DNA of 64,000 nucleotides from Flavobacteriaceae bacterium Ap0902 (GTDB lineage Bacteria > Bacteroidota > Bacteroidia > Flavobacteriales > Weeksellaceae): contig WTFG01000001.1 of NCBI GenBank assembly GCA_009835005.1, positions 496,001 to 560,000 of the forward strand, written 5' to 3'. Position numbers and translations under genes: made by a program. Positions 59,672 through 61,939 of the stretch are shown piece by piece; position 1 is the stretch's first letter; every line of letters starts with the position of its first letter. The notes under the pieces were generated by a model that searched no databases, was not told the DNA's origin, and saw only the letters and a program-made list of their open reading frames with translations.

Positions 59672-59679
59672 TATATTTG
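59672..59679 (+). promoter_or_regulatory. -7 element of queA
   Basis: TATATTTG matches TAnnTTTG and is followed by CATTC. It lies 24 bases before ATG 59704 and would fall at the very start of the frame if TTG 59677 were used, which supports the ATG. Confidence 0.45.
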
Positions 59680-59703
59680 CATTCCTGCAAAAACTGCGTA
59701 CAT

Positions 59704-60759
59704 ATGAAAATGAAAACATCGGATTTCGATTTTAAACTGCCAGAAGAACTGCTAGCAGAACGCCCTTCGGACTATAGGGATGAGGCACGCATGATGGTAG
59801 TGAATCGAAAGGAAGAAACAATAGAACATAAAACATTCAAGGACTTAATAGATTATTTTGAAGAAGATGATGTGTTAATCATGAATAATACGAAGGTTTT
59901 CCCGGCCAGATTATTTGGTAATAAGGAGAAAACTGGAGCCAAAATAGAAGTATTTTTACTTCGTGAATTGGATCAAGAAATGCGTCTTTGGGATGTCTTA
60001 GTAGACCCTGCTCGTAAGATTAGAATTGGTAACAAGCTGTTCTTTGGAGATAATGATGAATTAGTTGCAGAGGTTGTGGATAACACGACATCTCGTGGTA
60101 GAACTTTAAGGTTCTTATATGATGGTCCTTACGAGGAGTATCGTGAATTGCTAAAGAAACTTGGAACAACACCGCTCCCTAAATACATTAAAAGAGAAGC
60201 AGATGAAGAGGATGCGGAACGTTACCAAACCATCTTCGCCAAAGAAGAAGGTGCGGTGGCTGCTCCCACAGCTGGTTTACACTTTTCTAAACATTTAATT
60301 AAAAGATTAGAGATTAAAGGGGTTGATTTTGCAGAAGTAACCTTGCATATTGGGTTAGGGACTTTTGCGCCTGTAGAAGTAGAAGATTTGACAAAGCACA
60401 AAATGGAATCTGAAAGGGCTTATATTTCTCAAGAAACTGCAGATCGTGTGAATCGTGCTATAGATGATAAGAAGAGAATTTGTGCCGTGGGAACAACTTC
60501 TATGCGCGCTATAGAATCTGCCGTATCTGCCAATGGTTATCTAAACCCTTATCAAGCATGGACTAATAAATACATTCACCCACCCTATGAATTTAGTATT
60601 GCGAATTGTATGATTACCAATTTCCATACGCCACGCTCTACTTTGCTAATGATGGTCTCTGCATTTACAGGCCATGATTTAATGATGAAAGCATACAAAG
60701 AAGCCATCAAAGAGAAATATAAATTTTACTCTTATGGCGATGCCATGTTGATTATCTAA
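59704..60759 (+). CDS. queA: S-adenosylmethionine:tRNA ribosyltransferase-isomerase
   Basis: 351 residues from ATG 59704. The full QueA set of motifs is present: [21 protein letters not shown] at the start, [42 protein letters not shown] and [17 protein letters not shown]. It moves the ribosyl part of SAM onto preQ1-modified tRNA to form epoxyqueuosine. The upstream TTG at 59677 gives an atypical N-terminus. A terminator follows. Confidence 0.96.
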
Positions 60760-60782: not shown

Positions 60783-60813
60783 AAAAGCAATCTGAGTTTC
60801 GGGTTGCTTTTTT
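60783..60813 (+). terminator. Rho-independent terminator after queA
   Basis: AGCAATCTG pairs with CGGGTTGCT, including two G-T pairs, around AGTTT, and ends in a T-run. It separates queA from rlmN. Confidence 0.75.
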
Positions 60814-60841: not shown

Positions 60842-60849
60842 TATCTTTG
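60842..60849 (+). promoter_or_regulatory. -7 element of rlmN
   Basis: TATCTTTG matches TAnnTTTG and is followed by CCCC. Transcription should begin near 60857, upstream of the expected protein start at 60875-60881. Confidence 0.5.
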
Positions 60850-60877
60850 CCCCAATTAATTAAAATTTAATACCATA

Positions 60878-61939
60878 ATTATCGCAACGCCAAAAGACAT
60901 AAGAAAACTCACGCTAGAAGAACTTACTCAATTTATCAAAGAATTTGGAGAAAAACCTTTTAGAGCAAAACAAATTTATGAATGGCTTTGGAATAAAAAT
61001 GCTCATTCGTTTGATGAGATGACCAGTATCTCTAAAGAATTAAGAGAAGAATTGTCTAGACACTTTGTCATACAACCAATTACATTAGAAGAACATCAAA
61101 AAAGTAACGATGGCACGATTAAAAATGCAGTCAAATTATTTGATGGTAATGTGGTAGAATCTGTTTTGATTCCTACGGATTCGCGTACTACGGCTTGTGT
61201 TTCTTCTCAAGTGGGTTGTAGTTTAGATTGTAAATTTTGTGCTACTTCCAGGTTAAAGAGAATGCGAAATCTAACAGCCGCAGAAATTGTGGATCAAGTG
61301 AGTCTTATAGACCAACAGAGTAAAAGGGATTTTAATCATCCATTATCCAATATTGTATATATGGGGATGGGAGAACCTTTATTAAACTTTAATAATGTAG
61401 TAGATTCTGTTAAGAAGATTACGACACCGCACCCCAATGGTCTGGGAATGTCCCCTAGGAGAATCACAGTTTCAACCTCTGGAATTCCGAAAATGATAGA
61501 GAAATTAGCAGATGAGAATTTGAGAGTCGGTTTAGCGCTTTCATTGCATTCTGCAATAGAAGAGAAAAGGAACAAGATTATGCCTTTTAGTGAGAAGTTT
61601 CCATTAGAGGATATTTTAGATAGTCTAAGATATTGGTATGATAAAACAGGAAGCAGAATCACCATAGAGTATATCATTTGGAAAGACATCAATGACACCA
61701 AAGAAGATATGAATGCTTTGGTACGTTTCTGCCAGAGGGTTCCAGTCAAGGTAAATTTAATAGAATATAATAGCATTGGCGATCCAGAATTTCAACAAGC
61801 TCCTCCAGAAATTACAGATGCTTATATAGCGGCATTAGAAAGACACAATATTATAGTCAATGTACGCAGAAGTCGTGGTAAGGATATTGATGCTGCTTGT
61901 GGACAGTTGGCTAATAAAAATAAGTTAACTGTGAATTAA
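60878..61939 (+). CDS. rlmN: 23S rRNA/tRNA adenine-C2 methyltransferase with a non-canonical start
   Basis: The radical-SAM core has the cysteines of GCSLDCKFCATS, and the methyl-carrying cysteine in DAACGQLA near the end. The first ATG (61019) would remove about 47 residues that are clearly part of RlmN: KDIRKLTLEEL and KPFRAKQIYEWLW, the N-terminal RNA-binding helices. Upstream the frame is open back to 60860 but has no ATG, GTG or TTG; ATA 60875, ATT 60878 and ATC 60881 are the candidates. With ATT the protein is 353 residues, normal for flavobacterial RlmN. A sequence error or a real AUU start are the two explanations. Confidence 0.88.
   Translation: MIATPKDIRKLTLEELTQFIKEFGEKPFRAKQIYEWLWNKNAHSFDEMTSISKELREELSRHFVIQPITLEEHQKSNDGTIKNAVKLFDGNVVESVLIPTDSRTTACVSSQVGCSLDCKFCATSRLKRMRNLTAAEIVDQVSLIDQQSKRDFNHPLSNIVYMGMGEPLLNFNNVVDSVKKITTPHPNGLGMSPRRITVSTSGIPKMIEKLADENLRVGLALSLHSAIEEKRNKIMPFSEKFPLEDILDSLRYWYDKTGSRITIEYIIWKDINDTKEDMNALVRFCQRVPVKVNLIEYNSIGDPEFQQAPPEITDAYIAALERHNIIVNVRRSRGKDIDAACGQLANKNKLTVN

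Follow-up and report, generated by a model that had tools for sequence, protein, structure and literature searches.

The rlmN gene of Flavobacteriaceae bacterium Ap0902 raises a simple question: at which codon does its translation begin? The gene lies in a window of 64,000 nt (contig WTFG01000001.1, positions 496,001 to 560,000), which is the whole stretch of DNA analysed here; positions are those of the window, and all features placed in it are on the forward (+) strand. Directly after an in-frame TAA (60857-60859), the rlmN frame opens at 60860 and runs to its stop at 61939; its first codons read TTA AAA TTT AAT ACC ATA ATT ATC GCA ACG CCA AAA GAC. The earliest ATG, GTG or TTG in the frame is the ATG at 61019, which falls inside the conserved RlmN_N domain. 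A first-pass annotation of this DNA had described a frame devoid of ATG, GTG and TTG between the stop at 60857 and position 61019, and three consecutive codons ATA-ATT-ATC; our reading of the frame agrees on both counts, with the three codons at 60875, 60878 and 60881. Sequence comparison gives good support to the conclusion that rlmN in the genus of Ap0902 has a non-canonical start of the AUH class (third base not G). We consider it likely that rlmN in the genus begins at an AUH codon, most probably AUC 60881 in the window, that its output is low, and that it is open to discrimination by initiation factor 3 (IF3). Support is good for the class of start, whereas the exact codon and control by IF3 are what we infer from the evidence below.

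The coding region that we propose comprises 352 codons plus the stop (60881..61939), and its product matches TIGR00048 as well as the Escherichia coli RlmN structures 3rf9 and 5hr6. The full frame scores 386 bits against TIGR00048 (cut-off 290), a full-length match, and carries both the RlmN_N (PF21016) and Radical_SAM (PF04055) domains, with the radical-SAM CxxxCxxC motif present as CSLDCKFC. The simplest alternative is that translation starts at ATG 61019 and that a short RlmN is made, and two facts speak for it: this is the first canonical codon in the frame, and a methionine stands at that site in every relative aligned. However, a protein begun at 61019 loses the match to RlmN_N, which spans 60899..61072, and its TIGR00048 score drops to 324. 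Within the genus, the 45 codons that precede 61019 have a nonsynonymous divergence (pN) of 0.20-0.23 against a synonymous divergence (pS) of 0.77-0.87. With pN so far below pS, the stretch is under purifying selection at the protein level, and these codons are therefore translated. The ATG at 61019..61021 encodes a conserved internal methionine rather than a start: the residue is present in all seven species of the alignment, and since four of these have a TTG or GTG start farther upstream, the same methionine is internal in them. On the strength of the upstream selection and the lost RlmN_N match we rejected an internal start at 61019, which we regard as highly improbable.

A canonical start might instead have been removed by a sequencing or assembly error, or ribosomes might enter from another frame. 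The first-pass annotation had proposed a rare start for rlmN and had named relatives as one place to check it, and the relatives bear it out. The genus was sampled as three species, Ap0902 and two congeners (G001 and G002), at 79-81% protein identity. The start region reads TAA AAA ATA ATA AAG ATT AAA ACA CCT AAA GAC in G001 and AAT TTC AGC ATC AAT TCA AAA AAA GAC in G002, and neither congener has a canonical codon before the conserved KDIR residues. That the start is missing from both congeners as well shows that its loss in Ap0902 is not an assembly error; the three genomes are separate, and each lacks the start in a different sequence context. We rejected sequencing error on the basis of the two congeners. 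Entry from another frame is opposed by the absence of any ATG, in any frame, from 60857 to the GAC ATA AGA codons. We saw nothing in favour of either. Taken together, error and other-frame entry have a negligible chance of being correct, even smaller than that of a start at 61019.

The window is a piece of a Weeksellaceae-like Flavobacteriales chromosome, and among named bacteria the RlmN proteins of Chishuiella, Faecalibacter and Algoriella are the closest to its own. Among 151 distinct rlmN start regions, two of which were decided by eye (L012, GTG; L221, ATG), 147 are canonical (102 ATG, 35 TTG and 10 GTG). The four that have no ATG, TTG or GTG are the three species of Ap0902's genus and a Sphingobacteriaceae metagenome-assembled genome (L025), which has CTG ACT ACA AAA ACA GAT at the expected start. 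The nearest sister genera start rlmN at TTG, sometimes at GTG, and in seven rlmN genes of genera g9 and g20 a TTG stands directly before KDIR. The ancestral start was probably TTG, as in the nearest sister genera, and was lost on the branch leading to the genus of Ap0902.

Which of the three codons serves as the start is a finer question, and conservation and sequence context answer it differently. An AUH codon occupies the homologous position of rlmN in all three species: the fifth column counted back from GAC reads ATC, ATT and ATC, and it is the only near-AUG column common to them. For context, a model was trained on 373 ATG genes of Ap0902 and scores are given as percentiles of ATG starts; all three candidates have A at -3. 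ATC (60881..60883), the codon in the shared column, reaches the 75th percentile, its ATC-GCA sequence is also the start of infC, and the coding signal ahead of ATG 61019 sets in at GCA, right after it. ATA (60875..60877) has the best context, at the 97th percentile, and its column reads ATA in G001 and TTC in G002. ATT (60878..60880), the choice of the first-pass annotation, has the lowest context of the three (44th percentile) and a column that is not near-AUG in either congener (AAG in G001, AGC in G002); we therefore set AUU aside in favour of AUC, to which conservation points, and AUA, to which context points. Elsewhere, the ATT of rlmN in G001 and the ATC of infC each score at the 90th percentile.

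We give AUC about an even chance of being the start codon, AUA a distinctly smaller one, and consider AUU improbable. Several observations weigh against AUC and against its extension to the genus: the rlmN ATC of G002 stands in a poor context, at the 16th percentile, the context in Ap0902 prefers ATA over ATC, the second codon GCA is absent from the rlmN of both congeners, and the genus is represented by three species only. Alternatively, the exact codon may drift, with translation starting at AUA 60875 in Ap0902, behind an infC-like leader, and at AUC or AUU in the congeners. The 12 bases before this ATA (60863..60874) form an A/T-rich leader, AAATTTAATACC, in an unstructured region, and 11 of the 12 agree with the leaders that precede an ATA start of infC in other genera of the family, a match reached by 0.4% of the ATG leaders of Ap0902, though the likeness was noticed after the fact. 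The ATA context score is the highest of the three, but the TTC of G002 in that column counts against this reading. A start at AUA in Ap0902, with a codon that drifts within the genus, is a tentative alternative, somewhat less likely than a start at AUC.

The first-pass annotation had likened rlmN to infC, which encodes IF3, and the resemblance proved stronger than proposed, since in this family infC, too, is without a canonical start and begins at AUA or AUC. The infC survey covered loci L112-L141 and L232, of which three were left unresolved; all 28 resolved genomes of Ap0902's family have ATA (19) or ATC (9) in the start column, and the open frame holds no canonical codon before it, except for one distant TTG in L118. 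Most genera of the family start infC at ATA, while some, among them the genus of Ap0902, use ATC. In the three species of the genus infC begins ATT-ATC-GCA, and the same nine bases stand at the rlmN of Ap0902, so that the infC start ATTATCGCA recurs there. The rlmN of the window and infC share the 10-mer ATTATCGCAA, which occurs 15 times in 2.16 Mb; this sharing is suggestive and is not proof of a link. The infC gene of E. coli starts at AUU. For infC of Staphylococcus aureus, an AUA start has been reported (PMC13009471). The two genes differ in two respects: infC encodes the discriminating factor itself and forms an autogenous loop, whereas rlmN would be a target only; and the AUH start of infC is family-wide, whereas that of rlmN is confined to Ap0902's genus.

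In the model that we favour, an AUH codon, most likely AUC 60881, serves as the start of full-length RlmN and would be read by the ordinary initiator tRNA. A scan of part of the retrieved loci turned up one tRNA-Met(CAT) and no tRNA with an unusual anticodon. Initiation at this codon would be inefficient and would be rejected by IF3, which discriminates against AUU, AUC and AUA but not against AUG, GUG and UUG (PMC4611024); in S. aureus reporters, such non-canonical starts give about 10-30% of the output of AUG (PMC13009471). RlmN output would then be low and, on the pattern of the feedback loop of infC, would increase as IF3 becomes scarce in relation to 30S subunits. IF3-dependent control of rlmN is a good hypothesis by analogy with infC. 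A more specific proposal is that in this one genus RlmN has come to share the IF3 feedback of infC. This would link methylation of A2503 in 23S rRNA and of A37 in tRNA to how much IF3 there is per ribosome, in a phylum that does not select its starts by Shine-Dalgarno sequences; we consider it rather unlikely.

The AUH start could equally be real and merely tolerated: little RlmN may be needed, the TTG may have been lost by drift, and no meaningful IF3-dependent regulation need follow. Both the codon and the leader vary among the three species, and the distance from the queA stop to the rlmN start, 7 bases in the two sister genera measured, is 121, 97 and 38 bases in the genus, as if the start region had been rebuilt. 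One such start in S. aureus was unchanged between media (PMC13009471). Against mere tolerance, infC makes the same choice in the same genomes, and AUG is a single mutation away from ATC, ATT or ATA yet absent from all three species despite their divergence; this persistent absence suggests that the non-G third base has been kept. We judge a tolerated weak start without regulation to be about as likely as a regulatory one, and its own chance to be a little under even.

The AUH start of rlmN joins a known kind, represented by infC, pcnB and ccpN. To our knowledge, few bacterial genes beyond infC and pcnB have AUH starts. The pcnB gene of E. coli is reported to start at AUU (Binns and Masters 2002, as cited in PMC13009471); like rlmN, it is a gene other than infC that encodes an RNA-acting enzyme, and its AUH start keeps it low, as is proposed for rlmN, but it is a different gene in a different phylum, and Bacteroidota mRNAs naturally have no Shine-Dalgarno sequences (PMC6847099). 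In Staphylococcus, the non-canonical starts of ccpN (AUA) and cvfC1 (AUU) are conserved across species (PMC13009471), just as the start of rlmN is kept non-canonical in several species; unlike in those genes, at rlmN the context alone must serve. In Flavobacterium, and in Bacteroidota more widely, unstructured leaders and A at -3 are favoured (PMC6847099), features that all three candidate codons of rlmN share. Our literature search, whose coverage left out most subscription journals, turned up no description of rlmN with an AUH start. When a housekeeping gene for RNA modification begins at AUH codons throughout a genus, and in a lineage that picks its starts with no Shine-Dalgarno pairing, the recognition of such starts can be tested cleanly, and so can the question of whether the level of IF3 governs the methylation of rRNA and tRNA. 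In Ap0902, RlmN may be cut short at 61019 by automatic annotation.

To see how rare such genes are in Ap0902, 1811 coding-like open reading frames (ORFs) in 83% of the genome (G000) were ranked in a coding-potential screen by the signal upstream of their first canonical start. In this screen rlmN ranked 8th and infC 13th, which marks the missing start of rlmN as more than a chance occurrence. That these are the only two cases was an idea we dropped: they stood first and second on 33% of the genome, but 8th and 13th on 83%. Several other top-ranked ORFs look like fragments (SDR and PepSY pieces whose Pfam matches start inside the profile) or mobile genes (an IS110 transposase, and phage portal and tail genes on contig C6), and the remaining ones were left unresolved. 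Among intact housekeeping genes, rlmN and infC are the clearest cases, though not necessarily the sole ones.

Upstream of rlmN lies a gene at 59677..60759 whose product we take to be S-adenosylmethionine:tRNA ribosyltransferase-isomerase (QueA); it is in the ORF list of the window, and it also stands ahead of rlmN in the two congeners and in sister genera. Between the two genes, a pattern scan found an intrinsic-terminator-like hairpin followed by a T run (60783..60811), which has a folding energy of -15.1 kcal/mol (z -5.95); the queA-rlmN gap of G001 holds a comparable inverted repeat and T run. The first-pass annotation had placed a promoter at 60842. The element is present there, and TATCTTTG (60842..60849) fits the Bacteroidota -7 element TAnnTTTG, which makes a promoter plausible; as evidence it is weak, with 52 occurrences of TAnnTTTG on the (+) strand of the window and no exact copy seen just ahead of rlmN in G001 or G002. 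An Rfam scan found no structured leader upstream of rlmN.

The start-less frames of mobile elements form a separate set of observations. On the phage-like contig C6, a minor-tail or tape-measure-like frame (PF10145; L240:15938-19945) goes without ATG, GTG or TTG for its first 103 codons. Following the stop upstream of it, the frame opens GTT ATA GCA CAA AGA TTT, which resembles the infC starts of L139 and L140 (ATA GCA CAG AGA TTT), and an AUA start is possible for this frame. On the same contig, a phage portal frame (PF04860; L240:7218-8492) matches profile position 2 at residue 59 and has its first canonical start at codon 90, so its start may also be non-canonical. An IS110-type transposase frame (G000:C26:36139-37113) opens AAA TAT ATT TAT ATC GGA ATT GAT and has no canonical start in its first 47 codons. 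Lastly, a cluster of short start-less frames (L142-L161, L167-L171; G000:C1:259692-267829), several with repeated SGGxSSxIAGG-type motifs, looks like a set of displaced cassette fragments.
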